DNA from: a virus
Length of the DNA: 24,115 nt
IMG/VR virus record: IMGVR_UViG_3300005288_000108
Location: 1-24,115 of that record
Reading direction: 5' to 3' (one strand)
Shown piece after piece: positions 3,212 to 14,068 of the stretch. Each line of letters begins with the position of its first letter. The stretch's first letter is position 1. A program made the translations under genes and the position numbers. The notes under the pieces were generated by a model. It was not told the DNA's origin. It ran no database searches and worked only from the letters and a program-made list of their open reading frames with translations.

Positions 3212-3492
3212 TCCGCTTCACTCCTTTTCGCGGCCCGCACCATGCGAGCGCCGAAGAATTCGACTTTCTCAGCGTTGTACAACGCTTTGTTGTCCGCCTT
3301 TACCGCGCCACCCATGCGGCCAGTGCAGGTACGCCAGATCGCTTTAAACGCTTCGCCTTCTGCGAATGTCATGCCGAGCGCTTCGATAATGTCGATGCTC
3401 TCGGCGGTGTACGGCTTGGCGTTTGGGTCGATGGGGTCAGCGACGTGGCATTTGTAATAGTCGACGCTGCCGCCAGTTTTCTGTTGGGTCAT
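3208..3492 (-). CDS. Conserved phage hypothetical protein
   Basis: 94 aa with the pattern YTAESIDIIEALGMTFAEG, then AFKAIWR, then NAEKVEFFG. I recall this pattern from many phage replication regions, always without a known function. ATGA overlaps on both sides place it in the helicase operon. A role in replication is only a guess from context. Confidence 0.65.
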   Translation of the reverse strand: MTQQKTGGSVDYYKCHVADPIDPNAKPYTAESIDIIEALGMTFAEGEAFKAIWRTCTGRMGGAVKADNKALYNAEKVEFFGARMVRAAKRSEAE

Positions 3493-3977
3493 AGTGTGTT
3501 GCCCGGGTGGAGTTGACGTTTAGCTGTCAGGTACGCCTGGTGCGCCGCTTCAGCCGTCCTGAAGCTACCGAGGTGAATCTTCTGTCCGTTCGCATGTATC
3601 TGCGCGAGGAAAGCGTATTTCTTTTCGGTAACGCCTAGGAAGCCGCAACCGTTATTTCTTCGGGCCCGTTTTTCATTCTGGCAATTCAGGGATTTAGAAA
3701 CGTCGCGTAAGTTGGATATACGGTTGTCGTCTTTCACGCCGTTAATATGGTCGATGTCCTTCAAGGGCATTTCACCGTAGAAAGCCAACCACGCTAAGCG
3801 GTGGGCCATGTAGGTTTTTCCGCAAACAACGATCTGGCGATGACCTTTTGAGTCATGACAGCCTGCCAAATCACCGGCTCGCGCAGTACGGGCTCTGTAC
3901 ACTTTCCAATGGAAATCGCCGGTATTCGGGTTGTACGAGAGCAGTCTATTAAACAAATCGTAATCCAAGGCGTTCAT
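3489..3977 (-). CDS. HNH homing endonuclease with AP2 DNA-binding domain
   Basis: 162-aa protein with an HNH_3-type nuclease core (H59-R60, then D76-H77-I-N-G and N85/N89) and a C-terminal AP2-like three-stranded DNA-binding domain (about residues 111-155, GFLGVTEKKYAFLAQI). This is the usual build of free-standing phage HNH endonucleases that spread themselves by cutting alleles lacking them. It starts in an ATGA overlap with the helicase stop, so it is inserted without disturbing the operon. Whether it is active is not visible. Confidence 0.85.
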   Translation of the reverse strand: MNALDYDLFNRLLSYNPNTGDFHWKVYRARTARAGDLAGCHDSKGHRQIVVCGKTYMAHRLAWLAFYGEMPLKDIDHINGVKDDNRISNLRDVSKSLNCQNEKRARRNNGCGFLGVTEKKYAFLAQIHANGQKIHLGSFRTAEAAHQAYLTAKRQLHPGNTL

Positions 3978-6295: not shown

Positions 6296-6524
6296 CTAGC
6301 ACCTCGAACGAATCTACGGTGCAAAGGAAGACGACGCGCAAGGCTTGCTCTTCGTTCATTTCGAACATATGACATTCATCCCGTGTCATTCCCATTTCTT
6401 TAGCAAGCCAGCGGTACGCCGCAGATCGGGACATACCGCCGCTTTGCCACTTCGGATCGAAGGCTTTGTGCGCCGCCATTCGCGCTTTAGCGAGTGGGCT
6501 TCCCGGTTCAGCTTTGGCGCCCAT
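6285..6524 (-). CDS. DUF3268-like small protein
   Basis: 79 aa. The pattern SGGMSRSAAYRWLAKEMGM followed by ECHMFEMNEEQALRVV matches the C-terminal part of a phage family annotated as zinc-finger-containing domain (DUF3268). The Cys-rich N-terminal half of that family is absent, so this is a short version. It sits between VRR-NUC and helicase, its usual neighbourhood. Its start shares one base with the VRR-NUC stop (TAATG). Confidence 0.6.
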   Translation of the reverse strand: MGAKAEPGSPLAKARMAAHKAFDPKWQSGGMSRSAAYRWLAKEMGMTRDECHMFEMNEEQALRVVFLCTVDSFEVLDGN

Positions 6525-6844
6525 TACCCGTACACCTGATTTGAATGAAGCGTTGCTGAAACCGGATTGTTCGTTTCGAGCGCCTTTATCACCTTGTCCA
6601 CGGCCCCTTTGCTATCCAGCCAAATCACTTCGGCACCTGCAGCACGGCGACGCTCGTGGTCGCGCACCTGAGCTTCGGTAGGCTTTTTGCCGGTCGCTTT
6701 CAGCTCAACGAACAACACGCGCCCGCCGAACGTGATAAGCCGATCGGGGACCGAACGTCGCTGGGGGCTCGTAAATTTATCAGCCAGGGCGCCAATCTCT
6801 TTGCAGCGCTTCACGAGGTACGTTTCGATATCGCGTTCTAGCAT
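6524..6844 (-). CDS. VRR-NUC domain nuclease
   Basis: 106-aa single-domain nuclease of the PD-(D/E)XK superfamily. The active site pattern is visible as PD at 33-34 (VPDRLI) and E-L-K at 47-49 (VELKA), followed by a Q-x-x-x-H-like stretch (EAQVRDHERRR). VRR-NUC proteins are structure-specific DNA nucleases and in phages are regularly encoded beside SNF2 helicases, as here. It overlaps the upstream HNH gene by 7 bp. Confidence 0.85.
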   Translation of the reverse strand: MLERDIETYLVKRCKEIGALADKFTSPQRRSVPDRLITFGGRVLFVELKATGKKPTEAQVRDHERRRAAGAEVIWLDSKGAVDKVIKALETNNPVSATLHSNQVYG

Positions 6845-7200
6845 TTTGGAATCCTCTCAAAGTAGAACACGACCGGTGCTCCAGTCTCTACGATAAGTCC
6901 GTACGCCTTAGCCAGCTTGTAGATCGGGTGATAGCTGTTCAGGCTATTGACATGGCCCTCGATCCAAAGGCGCCAACCTTCTAGTGTCTGCCGGCCTTTA
7001 CTAATGTTGCATGGGGCGCAAGCTGGCATCATATTGGCTAGGTTGTGATTCTCGGGCTGATCTGCTTCTTTCCCCTGCTGTCGAATTAAAGGCTGAAGGT
7101 GATCTGCATGCCAGCGGCCTGTCAGTACCGCCCCGCAATACGCACAGCATCCTTCGTACTTAAGTCTTACGTGCTCTCGCTCCGCTTTCTTCAATCGCAT
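6838..7200 (-). CDS. HNH endonuclease
   Basis: 120-aa protein with a zinc-ribbon type HNH motif: C19-x-x-C22, H31-A-D-H34, Asn53/54 and C61-x-x-C64, then SKGRQ. This is the McrA/restriction-like HNH layout. It is the first gene after an internal promoter and precedes VRR-NUC. It could be a homing or a host-DNA-degrading nuclease; the sequence does not tell which. Confidence 0.8.
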   Translation of the reverse strand: MRLKKAEREHVRLKYEGCCAYCGAVLTGRWHADHLQPLIRQQGKEADQPENHNLANMMPACAPCNISKGRQTLEGWRLWIEGHVNSLNSYHPIYKLAKAYGLIVETGAPVVFYFERIPKC

Positions 7201-7225
7201 AAAAGTTCTCCTCTATTTGTACGCA

Positions 7226-7254
7226 AGCTTATGCAAGATTCGACTTGTAGTCAA
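7226..7254 (-). promoter_or_regulatory. Leftward promoter for the nuclease-helicase operon
   Basis: Minus-strand TTGACT (7249-7254), a 17-bp spacer and TAAGCT (7226-7231). The spacer holds ACAAG and CTTG six bases apart, as in the other leftward promoters here. The -35 overlaps the polymerase stop codon. An AGAGGAGA site and the HNH ATG follow. Confidence 0.55.
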
Positions 7255-8243
7255 CCTTTCCGGTAGCGATACGCTTCGAAGCCGGCGGCGGCGAGCGGCA
7301 GGCCTTCTGTCCAGTCGCAACCCGCTGACATCAGTTCGGCCAGGTGTCCGTGGGTGTAGTCGTCGGTGTCCGGCGCTTCGCTGATAATCTCGTCGTGGAC
7401 TGTCAGCACGATTTCGTAACCGGCTTTCTCAATATCCGACATGCGGTAGGCCAACACATCCCGCGCGCTGGCCTGAGTCACGTTCTCCGCCAGCTTGCCC
7501 GAGTAGGTGCGCAGCCGTTCCCATTTTCGGCTGTACTGGTTGATCCCCATGTACGTAATCTGCCCGTCGTCCTCAACACGTGGCGACGGGTAGCACAGAT
7601 ATCGACCGGACGGCAGCATGACGCGCAGCCACGCGCCATCACGGCGGATCTTGTGGCGACGGCATGTCAGTGTGCGACCTGGATTGTTGATCGCGTCGCG
7701 GCAAGCGTTCTCCAGTTCCTTCCAGTAGCTGACAGTCTGCGGGTGTGCTTCACGCCACAGACGCTTAAAAGCTTCGCATACGATGAACGCCGAATCGCTA
7801 AGTCCGTATTGACTTTTGCCTTTACTCAACTGCCATTCGAGGAAGTCTTTCGCCTCCCGCAAAGTGCTATCCGGAATAGCGTTGATCGCCTTATCGGCCA
7901 TGGCTTCCAGGTCGATGTTAAAGGCGAGCGAGAAAGTTATGAACGCACCGACGCCGCCGGCGTAGCCCAAGGCAAGTTCCATCGTCTTGCCGATCTGGCG
8001 CATGTCGCCGTCCACGTCGACAGGATCAATACCGAACGCCTTTGCGTAGGCGAGTTTGTAAAGGTCAAACCCTTCGCCGGCATCGAAGTCACGGAACGCT
8101 TGAAGCTTCCACTCTTCCCCTGCCAGCCAGGCGAGCTTGCGCCCTTCGATGTTGGAAAGGTCGGCCACTACCAGCTTCTTGCCTTTGGGCGCGATCACAC
8201 AGCCGCGTGTAGCACTGCTGCAGGCTTCCATAACGGTTGTCAT
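7251..8243 (-). CDS. Family A DNA polymerase, C-terminal half (palm and fingers)
   Basis: 330 aa carrying all three polymerase motifs: motif A VVADLSNIEGR (D28, E33), motif B RQIGKTMELALGYAGG (R82, K86, Y94) and motif C VHDE (H283-D284-E285). It lacks the 3'-5' exonuclease and thumb, which are encoded by a separate gene upstream (9097-10170). The first residues (MTTVMEACSSATRGC) continue directly from the end of that protein, so the pair equals one normal phage polymerase cut in two. It starts in an ATGA overlap with the methyltransferase stop. Catalytic residues are intact, so a two-subunit enzyme is expected. Confidence 0.9.
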   Translation of the reverse strand: MTTVMEACSSATRGCVIAPKGKKLVVADLSNIEGRKLAWLAGEEWKLQAFRDFDAGEGFDLYKLAYAKAFGIDPVDVDGDMRQIGKTMELALGYAGGVGAFITFSLAFNIDLEAMADKAINAIPDSTLREAKDFLEWQLSKGKSQYGLSDSAFIVCEAFKRLWREAHPQTVSYWKELENACRDAINNPGRTLTCRRHKIRRDGAWLRVMLPSGRYLCYPSPRVEDDGQITYMGINQYSRKWERLRTYSGKLAENVTQASARDVLAYRMSDIEKAGYEIVLTVHDEIISEAPDTDDYTHGHLAELMSAGCDWTEGLPLAAAGFEAYRYRKG

Positions 8244-9100
8244 GCCAGGTCTCCATGAATCGCGGTAGCGATGGAAGCAACGCGTGCCGGGATGAACTCG
8301 GCGTACTCGGGGTTTAACTCACAGAGAACGGCTTTCCGGCCATGTGCCAAGGCTACGCCGGCTGTCGTGCCGCTTCCGCCGAAAGGATCTAGAATTACGC
8401 CTCCTACAGGGCAGCCGGCGAGAATGCACGGCTCGACAAGACGCGCGGAAAAGGAGGCACCATGACCGCTTATCCCTGTTGGGGGGATACTCCATACAGA
8501 GCCTTTTGCGAAATTCGGCAGAGAGGACCTATCAAAATAATATTTCTTAGTTTTGGAAAGAAGAAATACCTGCTCGTGCCTGTTAGGAAGACGATCTTTG
8601 CTTGGCTCGGGCTTGCCGAAATTCTTAGACCAGATGATTTCTTGCCGAAGAAACCATCCGTCTAACCGTAGAGAGAAAGCGACCCTCCATGGTATGCCGA
8701 TAGTGTCCTTCTCTTTTAAGTCTCCATCCACTATCGATAGCCGTGTCAGGCCCATTTTGGTAGCTTCTGCCCACGTAGGTTCCTTAAATCCATTTAACGA
8801 TGGCTGATGACTGGAAGTCCGTATTCGTCGGCGGTTATTCATGGTGTCCCCGAGGTTAAGCCAAAGCGTACCGTCGTCAGCGAGCACGCGGCGGACTTCA
8901 CGGAGCACAGTCACTAGTGCGTTAACGAATTCGTCAGGCGTAGCCTCTAAACCCATTTGGCCGGCGACACCGTAATCGCGCAACCCAAAGTAAGGAGGAC
9001 TCGTGACGCAGCAGTTAACCGACTGATCCGCCATGGTCTTCAGTGAAGTTAGGCAATCGCCGATATGCAATTCGTAAGGCGGCTTCGCAAGCATGTTCAT
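8240..9100 (-). CDS. DNA methyltransferase (N6-adenine or N4-cytosine) inserted between polymerase halves
   Basis: 286-aa amino-methyltransferase. Catalytic motif IV TSPPY is at 33-37 and the AdoMet-binding motif I DPFGGSGTT at 238-246, so the order is IV then I (beta class). The segment between (about 90-200) should contain the target recognition part. The modified base cannot be decided from sequence. The gene overlaps the exonuclease half and the palm half by ATGA on each side. Likely roles: protecting phage DNA from restriction, or being the cargo of an insertion into the polymerase gene. Confidence 0.9.
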   Translation of the reverse strand: MNMLAKPPYELHIGDCLTSLKTMADQSVNCCVTSPPYFGLRDYGVAGQMGLEATPDEFVNALVTVLREVRRVLADDGTLWLNLGDTMNNRRRIRTSSHQPSLNGFKEPTWAEATKMGLTRLSIVDGDLKEKDTIGIPWRVAFSLRLDGWFLRQEIIWSKNFGKPEPSKDRLPNRHEQVFLLSKTKKYYFDRSSLPNFAKGSVWSIPPTGISGHGASFSARLVEPCILAGCPVGGVILDPFGGSGTTAGVALAHGRKAVLCELNPEYAEFIPARVASIATAIHGDLA

Positions 9101-10170
9101 ACCAAATCCTCGGCATCCGCCTTCAAGGCTTCAATCCACTGTTCAATTTCTTTGTTTTTGATCGTAGGCCTGGCAAGATTCTGAGGCTGCCATAGGCGAC
9201 CCGCCCACCGGCCGGTGCGCAACGCGCCACAGAACGCAAGAAGCCCCCGCAGCCTGCCGTCAGCGCTAACCCCGTTCAGAACGCGTTTGTACTTGCTGAC
9301 CGACGTTTTGGAGGCCTGCGCGCGCACGACAAGCAACTCTTTAAGTTCCCACGGCAGATCCTCGTCCGCCAAAGCCTTTTCGATAGTGCTGCCCTTCATG
9401 TCGGCCAGGGCAATGCCGTATTCTCCCAGGATATGCTCAAGCATCCGATCTCGCTGGTTGGCACTGGTCACGGCGCCATCCGTCATTTCGTTGGCCTGCC
9501 TTGATAGTTCCTTCTGCGCACGGTCTGACGCACGAATGGCAGCGTGCGCCAAGTCGAGATCCATCAGCACCCCGCGTTCATTGATGCGCTGGTCGAGGTG
9601 CCACAATTCCTTTTCCGCACCCCGGTAGTTCCAGCGCGGCAGCTTCTTGTAAATCTCGCGCATGGCCTCAATGTCGAGACGCCCGTACTCGCGAAAGGCT
9701 TCCCACTCGACAGGATGCGTTTCGCGAGTAGCGCGCCGGAGGATCTGGTTCTTGGGCCGTGGCTTGCAAAACAACTGGATCAGCGCCTTGCCGGCCTTGT
9801 CCTTAGCCTTGTCCTTCGCGATTCCGAGAATGTCCCCAAGCTTTTCCAAAGCGCCCGGCAAGCTATGCGCCATAGCGCAGACCATCGTATCGAACGTCTC
9901 CTCTACCGGAATCGTGAAGCCAATAGCATGAGTCATTACGGTACGGTCAAACGCCGAATTCTGGATCACCTTTTCGTAAGACGGATCGGCCAGTAGCTCC
10001 ATCAGATCCGACACGTCTTCATCCCCATCGCGAATGATCACTGGCCCATCGCCGACCGCCCACTGCCACATGATGATTTCAGCGCCTTCTGCATAACGGT
10101 GCGTGCCGTTGTTGATCGGCGTTTCGCAGAAGGTTTCTGTGTCAAGGAAAATGCATTTGTCGAGGTTCAT
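9097..10170 (-). CDS. Family A DNA polymerase, N-terminal half (3'-5' exonuclease and thumb)
   Basis: 357 aa. DEDD-type exonuclease motifs are visible: Exo I LDTET (D10, E12), Exo II NSAFDR (D75) and Exo III YGRLD (Y162, D166). A thumb-like helical region follows, and near the end ALRTGRWAGRLWQPQNL (about 316-332), the conserved segment before motif A. It stops at ADAEDLV, just before where intact homologues continue into motif A. The palm is encoded separately at 7251-8243. The proofreading site looks complete. It starts in an ATGA overlap with the upstream helix-turn-helix gene. Confidence 0.9.
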   Translation of the reverse strand: MNLDKCIFLDTETFCETPINNGTHRYAEGAEIIMWQWAVGDGPVIIRDGDEDVSDLMELLADPSYEKVIQNSAFDRTVMTHAIGFTIPVEETFDTMVCAMAHSLPGALEKLGDILGIAKDKAKDKAGKALIQLFCKPRPKNQILRRATRETHPVEWEAFREYGRLDIEAMREIYKKLPRWNYRGAEKELWHLDQRINERGVLMDLDLAHAAIRASDRAQKELSRQANEMTDGAVTSANQRDRMLEHILGEYGIALADMKGSTIEKALADEDLPWELKELLVVRAQASKTSVSKYKRVLNGVSADGRLRGLLAFCGALRTGRWAGRLWQPQNLARPTIKNKEIEQWIEALKADAEDLV

Positions 10171-10682
10171 CGTCCGTGTCCTTGATCAACGTTCTGGCAC
10201 TTCTTTTTCCGTCGCTGCTGCGGCACCGGGCCGCCGCCGATTTCGTAAACCTTTTCCCAGCTCGGCCAGTTGAGGGTGAGGTCGCCGCGTTTCTGCGGAA
10301 CTGAATGGATACGCGGGCGCCCCGGGTGCTTGGAATTCATTTCCACGGTTATGCCGCGGTGCTGGGCCGCCTTCTTCAGCGTGTGCCCGTCGGAATAGCC
10401 TATAACCCGCGCTGCGTACGCCCAGCTTCGCCGTTCCTTAGCCATTCGCTCCAGCGCTTCGCGCAAGTTCTCTCCCGTGTCCCTTAAGTACGCCAAGGCG
10501 CGGGAAGAGGGTTCGAAAGGGTCTTTGCCTGGGTGGCGGGAGAGCAGATGGCAGAAGCCTGGAGGGGAATACCCTAACGCCCTGGCCGTATCGAAACGGG
10601 ACAGACCCTGCTCTGCGAAATCAGACACCAGTTGCCAGAACTCTACGCCCCACCGTGCTTCTACCAATCTTATCCCGGTCAT
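10167..10682 (-). CDS. Putative helix-turn-helix DNA-binding protein
   Basis: 171 aa, basic, with two helix-turn-helix-like stretches: about residues 32-50 (FDTARALGYSPPGFCHLLS) and 88-110 (WAYAARVIGYSDGHTLKKAAQ). The C-terminus is basic (QQRRKKK). It sits directly before the polymerase with ATGA overlaps on both sides. It could be a regulator or replication accessory protein; no family recognised. Confidence 0.6.
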   Translation of the reverse strand: MTGIRLVEARWGVEFWQLVSDFAEQGLSRFDTARALGYSPPGFCHLLSRHPGKDPFEPSSRALAYLRDTGENLREALERMAKERRSWAYAARVIGYSDGHTLKKAAQHRGITVEMNSKHPGRPRIHSVPQKRGDLTLNWPSWEKVYEIGGGPVPQQRRKKKCQNVDQGHGR

Positions 10683-10780
10683 AACTCGACCCTTTCATCC
10701 GCCCAGTGAATAGCCGCGCCGGCAATCAGAGGCACGCCAACGATAAGAATTAAAACGCCGATCACGAAGTACCAAGTCAA
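10679..10780 (-). CDS. 33-aa single-pass membrane protein (TTG start)
   Basis: A short frame beginning with TTG, which overlaps the stop of the upstream gene (TTGA); CAGGAGA lies about 7 nt upstream. It ends in an ATGA overlap with the helix-turn-helix gene. The product is almost all one hydrophobic helix (WYFVIGVLILIVGVPLIAG), then a short charged tail. The overlaps on both sides are the main evidence that it is real. Confidence 0.6.
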   Translation of the reverse strand: MTWYFVIGVLILIVGVPLIAGAAIHWADERVEL

Positions 10781-10929
10781 GTTTGCTTCTCCTGACGTGC
10801 GCGGTAGGCCTTGTTCCAACCATCCGCCCAACGCTTCAGGGAGAAGGAACACTTCTCAGCATCAAACGGGTTCTCGTCGCGCTGCAAGCCTTTCAGGAAG
10901 GCCTCGTAGCCTTGTTCAAACGCTGTCAT
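10777..10929 (-). CDS. Rmf/CrpP-like small protein
   Basis: 50 aa starting MTAFEQGYEAFLKG, then ENPFD and a KRWADGWNKAY end. This matches the short fold shared by ribosome modulation factor and CrpP-like proteins, common in pseudomonad phages. The ATG at 10929 is preceded by GAGGTG; an upstream ATG at 10977 lies inside the preceding gene and lacks support. Function in the phage is unknown; ribosome binding is an analogy only. Confidence 0.55.
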   Translation of the reverse strand: MTAFEQGYEAFLKGLQRDENPFDAEKCSFSLKRWADGWNKAYRARQEKQT

Positions 10930-11062
10930 TGCGCACCTCGAACTGAATTGGGCAGTATGGGGAGTTGAAGTCTTCACCGTACAGAAGCGCGGCTAGACCT
11001 TGCGCAGCGCGCCACGTATGCACCCACTGGACGTAACCGTTAAGAACGATAGGGGTTAGCAT
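10916..11062 (-). CDS. Small hypothetical protein
   Basis: 48-aa frame with AGGAGA about 7 nt before its ATG. It overlaps the next gene's start by 14 bp. Contains a Trp/Tyr-rich segment (NGYVQWVHTWRAAQGLAALLYGEDF). No family recognised. Confidence 0.5.
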   Translation of the reverse strand: MLTPIVLNGYVQWVHTWRAAQGLAALLYGEDFNSPYCPIQFEVRNDSV

Positions 11063-11717: not shown

Positions 11718-11930
11718 TTATTTACGGACCGACTCGTAGAGCTTGATCAGTAAGAGGCCTACAGCGCACCCGATGAAGAAGCCGAGCACTAACGCTAGGC
11801 CGCCCCAGAACGGCGCTGTGACCCACCACCAGCTCCAGTTGATGAAACCGGTAAGCTTCAGGCCTACGAACAGGACGCCGAGCAAACCGAGTGTTGTAGC
11901 ACCGCTGGAAGAACTCGACGACTTGCTCAT
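11718..11930 (-). CDS. Small two-pass membrane protein
   Basis: 70 aa with a Ser-rich N-terminus and two hydrophobic helices (about 12-28 and 36-62). The segment LGLLGVLFVGLKLTGFINWSWWWVTAPFW matches a phage family labelled transmembrane Fragile-X-F protein in databases, whose function is unknown. It starts in an ATGA overlap with the DUF2815 gene and is followed by a dyad and a terminator. Confidence 0.7.
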   Translation of the reverse strand: MSKSSSSSSGATTLGLLGVLFVGLKLTGFINWSWWWVTAPFWGGLALVLGFFIGCAVGLLLIKLYESVRK

Positions 11931-12475
11931 GCCAGGTCTTCCGCGTCCGCGCCTTCGGCAATCTCTTCGAAGTCGCTGGCGTCTGCGGAGGTGCCGCCGC
12001 CGGAGAACGCTTCCCCGTCCTTCACAAACTGGATACCTTGAAGCTGGGCGTTGACGCGCTTCCCGTATTTATTCTCCTGTGCCCACACGTCAATGATCAC
12101 GTTCACGTAAGAGCCGGAGTACGGTTTGCCGTCTGCGGCCACCAAAGGGCTGCGATCGCGATCCACGACGGTAGGTCGCACAGTGTTGTAGGCGTTGAAG
12201 TACAGGTTGCCTTCGTACCCGGCCAGGGAAGCTTTGCTGTCACCGTTGTGGGTCAGCAGCTTGTCGCCAGCTTTTAGTTCCTTCTTTACCGCACCCCACT
12301 TGTCGCCCCACTTGGCTTTGCCCACTTGGTCGATCACCGCATCGAGGCCGGCGATGCCTGGGTGTGCAGGGTCGAACAGGAAAGCCGCACTGAATTGCAG
12401 GGAACCGCTTTCAGAAGCCTTAGGTTCGAAGATGTTCGGGAAGGAAATGCGGGCGTTTTGGAAAGTATGTTTCAT
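11927..12475 (-). CDS. DUF2815 family ssDNA-binding protein
   Basis: 182 aa beginning with the family signature (TFQNARISFPNIFEPKA), followed by the conserved middle segment around GDSKASLAGYEGNLYFNAYN and a very acidic C-terminal tail (EEIAEGADAEDLA). DUF2815 proteins are phage replication proteins thought to bind ssDNA with an OB-like fold; the acidic tail is typical of SSBs that recruit partners. Neighbours are the DUF2800 nuclease and the polymerase, the usual module. A GAGGA site precedes the ATG. Confidence 0.8.
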   Translation of the reverse strand: MKHTFQNARISFPNIFEPKASESGSLQFSAAFLFDPAHPGIAGLDAVIDQVGKAKWGDKWGAVKKELKAGDKLLTHNGDSKASLAGYEGNLYFNAYNTVRPTVVDRDRSPLVAADGKPYSGSYVNVIIDVWAQENKYGKRVNAQLQGIQFVKDGEAFSGGGTSADASDFEEIAEGADAEDLA

Positions 12476-12511: not shown

Positions 12512-14068
12512 TTACACGAGATCGTCGAAGTTATCTTCGACAACGGTTTCTTGCTCTACAGCGACAAGCGCTTCAATGACCTGCTCGTTAGCCGTTTTGA
12601 ACTCTTCTACTTCCACCGACAGCTCTTCGAACTGCTCAGCAATCGCCATGCTCAATGCAGGACGCTTATCGCTGGCCGGTGCTACGGATGGCTTGCCATC
12701 GCTACGCCCGATCAATGGCTGGAGCTTGTTCCACTTGCGTGGGTTGGCTTCCTTCAAGACCTTCTCCGCCGTTGTGGGGCTGATCAGCTTGAAGTCGTAC
12801 ATTTGGTCGACCTTCAACCTCATCGCTTTCAATGCGGCTTCTGCTTCCGCCTCGTCCTTCCAGCTACGTGCACCCTGGCGGCCTTCGACCAGCTTGTAAC
12901 GGGCATCGGTGAACTTACCTGCCAGGAGGCGTCGCTCAACTTCAGCGCGTACAGCTTTGGCGAAGCCTTCGATCATATCGGCAGCGTCCATCAGGGTCGC
13001 CAAACGCTCATCGTCAGCCGTAGCTACCGCTTCCGTCGCCGCTTCCAGCGATGGCCGAATGCTTGGTTTCTTGACGACGAAGCAGCTCAAGTCATCGGAA
13101 GTTTCGGCTTCATGGAAACTGATCGCCGCCGGCTTCACGCCGAACGATTGCGCCAAAAGCTTTTCAGCCTGCGGCATTTCTACCTTGACGAATCCTTTTT
13201 CGAGATCCACGAACTCGCCCGCAATTAGCTCCATGGTGTGATCGGTACGCTCGTTGCATGTAGCAGCTCGCTTGCAGAACTTGCACTGCTTCTCCCCGGG
13301 TGTTGCGGGAAGCATTTCGCCTGGCGTGAACGCGATCTCCTTGGACGCTTTGCGGATCAGTTCGATACGCGCATCAAGCTCGGTCCGAGTAATTACGTGT
13401 TCGTCGAAGTGCTGCAAACGCGGCTGCAAGATGTGCAGGTGGATCTGTTCCACTTCACCTACGAAGTCGAACTCCTGCAAACCGGCGTCGGTGTACATTT
13501 CCTGCTGCTCGTTATCGGCGGCGTAAACCTGCACGCCCATGCCCCACTTAAGATCGATCGAGTGCGCAACGCTACCCTTTATGATCCACACGTCAGTGGT
13601 GCCGGTGGCCGGCTCTACTTCGTCTTCGCTGTAGAGATCGCCATTGTCGAAGTCGACATACTGGCCGGCGTCATTCTTGAAGCAAACTGCGCCGGTAACC
13701 TTGTGCCAGTGCTCTCCGGTGATGTGCGCAATGCTCAGCTTCTGTTCGGTGTAGATCGTTGCACCATCTGCGACAGCCCGAACGTAATCCAAAGCCTTCT
13801 GCATTGGGCCGATCATGTCGAGTCCGACCGGGTATTGGCCGGACGTGTGGAACTCGGTTACGCCGTCTTTAACCTGGATGCGCAGACCCTGAAAGTCTTT
13901 TGCGTCCTTATTTTCCAGCAGGCACTGCTCCATCAGGAAATGCGCTGCGGTGCCTTCGTCCGCAAAGCTGCTCGACTGGTCGGGCAACCCGCGTTCCCGA
14001 TGCGGCTTAGCCAAGCAGCGAATAGCTGCTGGCATACCGCTAGGACTTAAGAGTGCATGTGCGCCCAT
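12512..14068 (-). CDS. DUF2800 family Cas4/RecB-like nuclease
   Basis: 518-aa protein of the PD-(D/E)XK superfamily. Visible elements: SPSGMPAAIRC with C18, GTTDVW (D159), IDLKWG (D172, K174), a Q-x-x-x-Y motif (Q188, Y192) and three clustered cysteines C262, C265 and C271. The four cysteines fit an iron-sulfur cluster as in Cas4/AddB nucleases. The protein probably processes DNA ends during replication or recombination. The C-terminal third (from about 340) is helical and lacks recognised motifs. It starts in a TAATG overlap with a 56-aa gene. Confidence 0.8.
   Translation of the reverse strand: MGAHALLSPSGMPAAIRCLAKPHRERGLPDQSSSFADEGTAAHFLMEQCLLENKDAKDFQGLRIQVKDGVTEFHTSGQYPVGLDMIGPMQKALDYVRAVADGATIYTEQKLSIAHITGEHWHKVTGAVCFKNDAGQYVDFDNGDLYSEDEVEPATGTTDVWIIKGSVAHSIDLKWGMGVQVYAADNEQQEMYTDAGLQEFDFVGEVEQIHLHILQPRLQHFDEHVITRTELDARIELIRKASKEIAFTPGEMLPATPGEKQCKFCKRAATCNERTDHTMELIAGEFVDLEKGFVKVEMPQAEKLLAQSFGVKPAAISFHEAETSDDLSCFVVKKPSIRPSLEAATEAVATADDERLATLMDAADMIEGFAKAVRAEVERRLLAGKFTDARYKLVEGRQGARSWKDEAEAEAALKAMRLKVDQMYDFKLISPTTAEKVLKEANPRKWNKLQPLIGRSDGKPSVAPASDKRPALSMAIAEQFEELSVEVEEFKTANEQVIEALVAVEQETVVEDNFDDLV

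Follow-up and report, generated by a model that had tools for sequence, protein, structure and literature searches.

In Aeromonas phage Aeh1, the gene of an essential enzyme, the ribonucleotide reductase gene nrdA, is cut at the point where the homing endonuclease gene mobE is inserted; the insert is regarded as the cause of the split, and the split enzyme was reported to be functional (PMC2988022). The replicative polymerase gene 43 of Aeromonas phages 25 and 44RR is also present as two genes, which are separated by an endonuclease gene in one phage and by other sequence in the other, and the split may predate the endonuclease (PMC2988022). Among family A DNA polymerases, that of the Methylophilales phages MEP401 and MEP402 (OP830906, gp13-gp15) is encoded in two ORFs. 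According to the report on these phages, most marine genomes related to MEP401 also have a split polymerase, and an intron was suggested by its authors (PMC10580990). Phage nuclease genes have been reported at the boundaries of genetic exchange (PMC10448857). Among the closest named homologues of the polymerase described here are those of Bordetella phage BPP-1 (Bbp42) and Burkholderia phage BcepC6B, with 57-64% identity in the palm; these phages show a similar order of exonuclease, single-stranded DNA-binding protein (SSB) and polymerase genes.

The window, that is, the whole stretch of DNA analysed here, is a viral contig of 24,115 bases from an IMG/VR record. A megablast search of the window against phages for a close named relative gave no match. 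Its family A polymerase is distributed over two ORFs on the minus strand, identified from the ORF list, Pfam, PHROG and comparison with BPP-1. The N-terminal subunit (exo half; 357 aa, 9097..10170) contains the 3'-5' exonuclease domain, the thumb and the first palm segment with the TGR and QNL boxes, and ends in KADAEDLV. The C-terminal subunit (palm half; 330 aa, 7251..8243) contains motif A, the fingers with motif B, motif C and the rest of the palm. Between them lies a cargo gene for an N4/N6 DNA methyltransferase of 286 aa (8240..9100, minus strand), which belongs to the beta class, as its PF01555 domain carries motif IV (SPPY) ahead of motif I (DPFGGSGTT). The exo-half stop and the methyltransferase start share a 4-nt ATGA overlap (9097..9100), preceded by a Shine-Dalgarno-like GAGG (9108-9111), and the methyltransferase stop and the palm-half start share another (8240..8243), preceded by GGAG (8251-8254), all on the minus strand. 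Upstream, a 171-aa ORF with no Pfam or PHROG family match (10167..10682, minus strand) overlaps the exo half by 4 nt. Immediately after the palm half comes an HNH endonuclease gene (6838..7200, minus strand), found in the Pfam and PHROG searches; with a second one at 3489-3977, also on the minus strand, there are two HNH genes among the replication genes.

Pfam assigns DNA_pol_A_exo1 to the exo half (5e-9), N6_N4_Mtase to the middle ORF (9e-40) and DNA_pol_A to the palm half (2e-13). The PHROG profile phrog_17 is covered at 670-989 by the exo half and at 994-1232 by the palm half, so no notable part of the polymerase has been lost. Aligned to BPP-1 bbp42, a single annotated gene, the two halves match end to start: the exo half matches up to 37486 and the palm half, from its residue 3, onward from 37493, with a gap of two codons. 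The exonuclease motifs DTE, NSAFD and YGRLD are all on the exo half together with TGR and QNL, and motifs A (DLSNIEGR), B (RQIGK...GYAGG) and C (VHDE) are on the palm half; in the alignments of the split clade described below, the catalytic positions of both halves are invariant or nearly so. The initial annotation, which had recognized one complete polymerase broken between the TGR/QNL segment and motif A, with all catalytic residues retained and ATGA overlaps at both methyltransferase junctions, is borne out on each of these points.

Alignment to solved Taq structures places the palm-half start at the equivalent of Taq residues ~584-590, between QNIP and IRRAF, so that the TGR/QNL part of the palm stays with the exo half and everything from motif A onward belongs to the palm half. 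AlphaFold2 models of each half alone have a mean pLDDT of 90.1 (exo) and 92.4 (palm). Confidence drops mainly in the stretches that flank the break, at exo-half residues ~310-340 and over the initial 20 palm-half residues, and this fits two pieces that would complete one another. In Foldseek searches of the PDB, the exo-half model matched G20c PolI, Klenow and T7 polymerase, and the palm-half model matched Taq, Klenow and Bst. When the whole fused protein was compared by sequence with the PDB, a single weak match resulted, and profiles and folds were required for these assignments.

Relatives were collected by searches of viral contigs and genomes, with duplicates removed and unsplit outgroups picked by similarity to the window. 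The same break is found in 34 distinct contigs, window included, all of them metagenome contigs, and 102 others having both parts are unsplit; with so many occurrences the break is not a product of chance. Nothing lies between the halves in nine of the 34: seven have a direct ATGA overlap (L130, L150, L125, L137, L123, L051, L117) and two have neighbouring stop and start codons (TGATG, TAATG). The overlaps, which had been taken as purpose-made for the methyltransferase, are therefore real but not specific to it.

The slot between the halves is occupied in the other 25 contigs, by at least eight kinds of cargo. Four of these are methyltransferase types and two are HNH endonucleases, the others being proteins without an assigned function. 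A methyltransferase is present in 14 occupied slots: the window's type (window, L119), another PF01555 methyltransferase (L116, L157, L129, L135), a C5-methyltransferase with a second overlapping ORF (L128, L127, L131), and a 236-aa phrog_757 protein annotated as DNA methyltransferase (L152, L140, L182, L148, L142). An HNH gene occurs in seven, either of the NUMOD4-HNH type (L141, L132) or with an AP2-like domain (L138, L151, L118, L139, and L142 behind the phrog_757 protein). The remainder hold phrog_12600, of unknown function (L134, L145), or small ORFs (L144, L143, L146). The arrangement in L142 (8101-9353) is thus a tandem of two cargo genes. In L128, L127 and L131 the second ORF (phrog_1008/31772, "DNA methyltransferase") occupies, in a different frame, most of the same stretch as the C5-methyltransferase ORF (phrog_363). 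The window's methyltransferase type is present in L133 too, at a location other than the slot. When this methyltransferase alone was used as query, only four other viral contigs were matched, and no polymerase halves were found near it within their fetched flanks.

In trees of the exo and palm parts, the split contigs form one clade with support of 100/100 (exo) and 96/94 (palm), and the cargo state changes at least 22-23 times on them, both trees being built from short proteins in a recombining group. In two members, L126 and L120, the halves are joined in frame (DLIGGPTVMDK), giving open frames 744 and 728 aa long. These two contigs are nested deep inside the split clade beside the split L133, to which they are 96-98% identical. 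Forcing them out of the split clade is rejected by the AU test on the palm data (p 9e-5) and not quite rejected on the exo data (p 0.063). The fused joint has four codons between the flanking conserved residues, whereas unsplit outgroups have three, so the fusion does not look copied from these outgroups. One fission followed by later re-fusion is the simplest reading of these sequences. The topologies of the exo and palm trees reject one another (delta lnL 1067 and 1299), and the window and L128, for example, are 80% identical in the exo half and 97% identical in the palm half. This strong conflict indicates that the halves and the cargo reassort between phages.

It is very probable, in our assessment, that an ancient gene fission has been retained as separately translated subunits and that the stop-start joint admits passenger genes. 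A BPP-1-like family A polymerase gene would have undergone fission once, in an ancestor, between the QNL box and motif A, leaving two genes linked by an ATGA stop-start overlap, with a ribosome-binding sequence located in the terminal part of the first gene. Each half would be translated independently, presumably with translational coupling at the joint, and the two proteins would assemble non-covalently into one active replicative, proofreading polymerase. As the exo/palm joint is then an ordinary operon boundary, phage recombination could insert there any gene that brings a start and a stop of its own. Cargo would be gained and lost, halves would be swapped between phages, and a small indel could re-fuse them. 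The window's methyltransferase would probably be a passenger that shields the phage DNA from host restriction.

The initial annotation had instead cast the methyltransferase as the element that split the gene. This part is not supported: nine relatives are broken with no insert and 23 others have different cargo at the joint, which makes the methyltransferase one of many interchangeable occupants of the slot. Judged from these contigs, the break in the clade as a whole is not of its making. A more general form of the idea, in which an inserted methyltransferase or endonuclease caused the split as mobE did in Aeh1 nrdA, and the cargo-less members arose by later deletion, is unlikely, though several observations are in its favour. 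The slot of seven contigs contains HNH genes, in part with NUMOD4 or AP2 modules, the splitting of phage genes by nucleases of this sort is known (PMC2988022), and insertion of an endonuclease followed by its loss would give a picture similar to that of a cargo-less ancestor. However, the cargo classes are mutually unrelated and scattered over the tree, and no remnant is seen at the cargo-less joints. The cargo of the window is a methyltransferase rather than a homing endonuclease, HNH genes being confined to those seven of the 34 contigs; the methyltransferases have no known self-mobility, and the case for one as the cause is weak. An HNH gene may have been involved in the first event.

The fission reading was further compared with the ways in which the halves might be read as one chain or not used at all. 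A Shine-Dalgarno-like element lies 5-9 nt upstream of 27 of 32 palm starts, as scored with loose motifs and without a matched control. Programmed ribosomal frameshifting, which would join the halves into one product, is very unlikely: cargo-less members do have the palm half in frame -1 directly at the stop codon, but inspection by eye revealed no X-XXY-YYZ heptamer at the joints, and a whole ORF stands between the halves in 25 of the 34 contigs. Split genes are often pseudogenes, and decay of a broken gene in a phage relying on the host polymerase was also considered. Median dN/dS (Nei-Gojobori, saturated pairs excluded) is 0.106 for the exo half (171 pairs) and 0.125 for the palm half (151 pairs), as compared with 0.229 and 0.212 for the corresponding parts of the unsplit outgroup. 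With dN/dS near 0.1 in both halves, complete catalytic motifs, many independent contigs and re-fusion, there is no sign of decay, and we hold that explanation to be extremely improbable. Searches for DNA_pol_A, PolB and PolIII-alpha in 18 relatives (contigs of 40-54 kb, completeness not stated) found no second DNA polymerase, full-length or otherwise, every DNA_pol_A match in them being the split or re-fused gene. Both halves are under purifying selection, no other polymerase was found in these 18 relatives and two members are re-fused, all of which agrees with the original suggestion that the halves probably work together as a two-subunit enzyme. Phage polymerase genes often contain group I introns. 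The probability that an intron, as suspected in the MEP401 polymerase by the authors of that report (PMC10580990), lets the halves be read as one protein is nevertheless close to negligible, for the methyltransferase ORF occupies the entire insert, insert-free members are still split and out of frame, and an Rfam search run at E<1 over window positions 6500-11000 matched no intron, its sole match being to an lncRNA of no relevance.

A second break was found in seven contigs (L140, L182, L051, L135, L117, L148, L146), in which the palm ORF ends before motif C, at ...MPRIE(A/T)WRP*. Motif C is carried by a separate ORF of 61-65 aa that starts within the overlap, with ATG (GTG in L146) behind GAGGAT. 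The WRP* ending is maintained across synonymous changes (AGA/CGC/CGT, CCG/CCA, TAA/TAG), and for the small ORF within the closest group dN is ~0.01 against dS of 0.4-0.8. The polymerase of these seven contigs would consist of three proteins, motif A being on one chain and motif C on another. Other irregularities were observed in polymerase genes of the collection. In-frame insertions of ~270-350 aa that resemble inteins, starting with Cys and ending in HN or GN, are located at about palm residue 254 in L152 and L135, at about residue 91 in L117 and L148, and after TGRW in the exo part of L104. In L102 (Candidatus Sodalis endolongispinus), polymerase matches fall in several frames and resemble a degenerate prophage copy.

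The C-terminal DLV of the exo half recurs on many cargo genes. This tail was considered as a target-site duplication or insertion mark at the exo/palm joint and was rejected, since DLV also terminates homologues of these cargo genes located elsewhere in the clade, and DLV/DLA endings are found on exonuclease and SSB genes as well. In the window, the exonuclease (phrog_69, 12512-14068, minus strand) and the SSB (phrog_112, 11927-12475, minus strand) have a common short acidic C-terminal tail. Such tails differ between phages and tend to match within one: DDLV/EDLA in the window, AEAFV/AEAFV in L177, SDMI/ADMI in L167, and ADIL/SEIL in L169. Over 55 distinct tail pairs from outside the split set of the tree, the last three residues were more similar within a genome than in any of 5000 shuffles, which ignore relatedness; a few of the loci counted come from split-clade contigs left out of the split list. 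Methyltransferases of L167, L169 and L170 carry the exonuclease/SSB tail too. From its sequence pattern, the tail looks like a co-evolving recruitment tag.

Closely related proteins thus provide a natural series of fused, split, split with different cargo, three-piece and again fused forms, which makes the tolerance of an essential polymerase to fission, and the order of splitting and insertion, directly testable. The locus also presents an exchange slot for methyltransferases and endonucleases within a core replication gene. A broader proposal, offered tentatively, is that a replicative family A polymerase is made from two separately produced proteins, or three in some lineages, with the catalytic aspartates of motifs A and C on different chains in the three-piece form, and that the exo/palm joint may serve as a platform for reassorting halves and for swapping anti-restriction cargo under the polymerase's own translation.

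Compared with the known systems, Aeh1 differs in its enzyme and in its homing endonuclease insert, and gene 43 of Aeromonas phages 25 and 44RR encodes a family B polymerase and is described there from few genomes (PMC2988022). In BPP-1 and BcepC6B, unlike the window, the polymerase is an unsplit single gene, and BcepC6B has a methyltransferase just upstream of it. MEP401 is broken after the QN(L/F) box, just before motif A, at approximately the same place as the window (gp13 ends NLQNFDGEIKTLFLSRYGE and gp15 begins MILNADAKALEW), which points to a permissive site usable in split-polymerase design. Its polymerase is distant and absent among the relatives listed, and its split is therefore probably independent. 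Unlike in the window, a single small unknown ORF of 77 aa lies between its halves, and cargo variety, re-fusion and a third piece are not mentioned in the available part of its report (PMC10580990). In the open-access literature, no description was found of a joint of this kind with differing cargo, nor of re-fused or three-piece forms. A split family A phage polymerase is thus already known from MEP401, while the turnover of cargo, the re-fusion and the three-piece form appear to be new.
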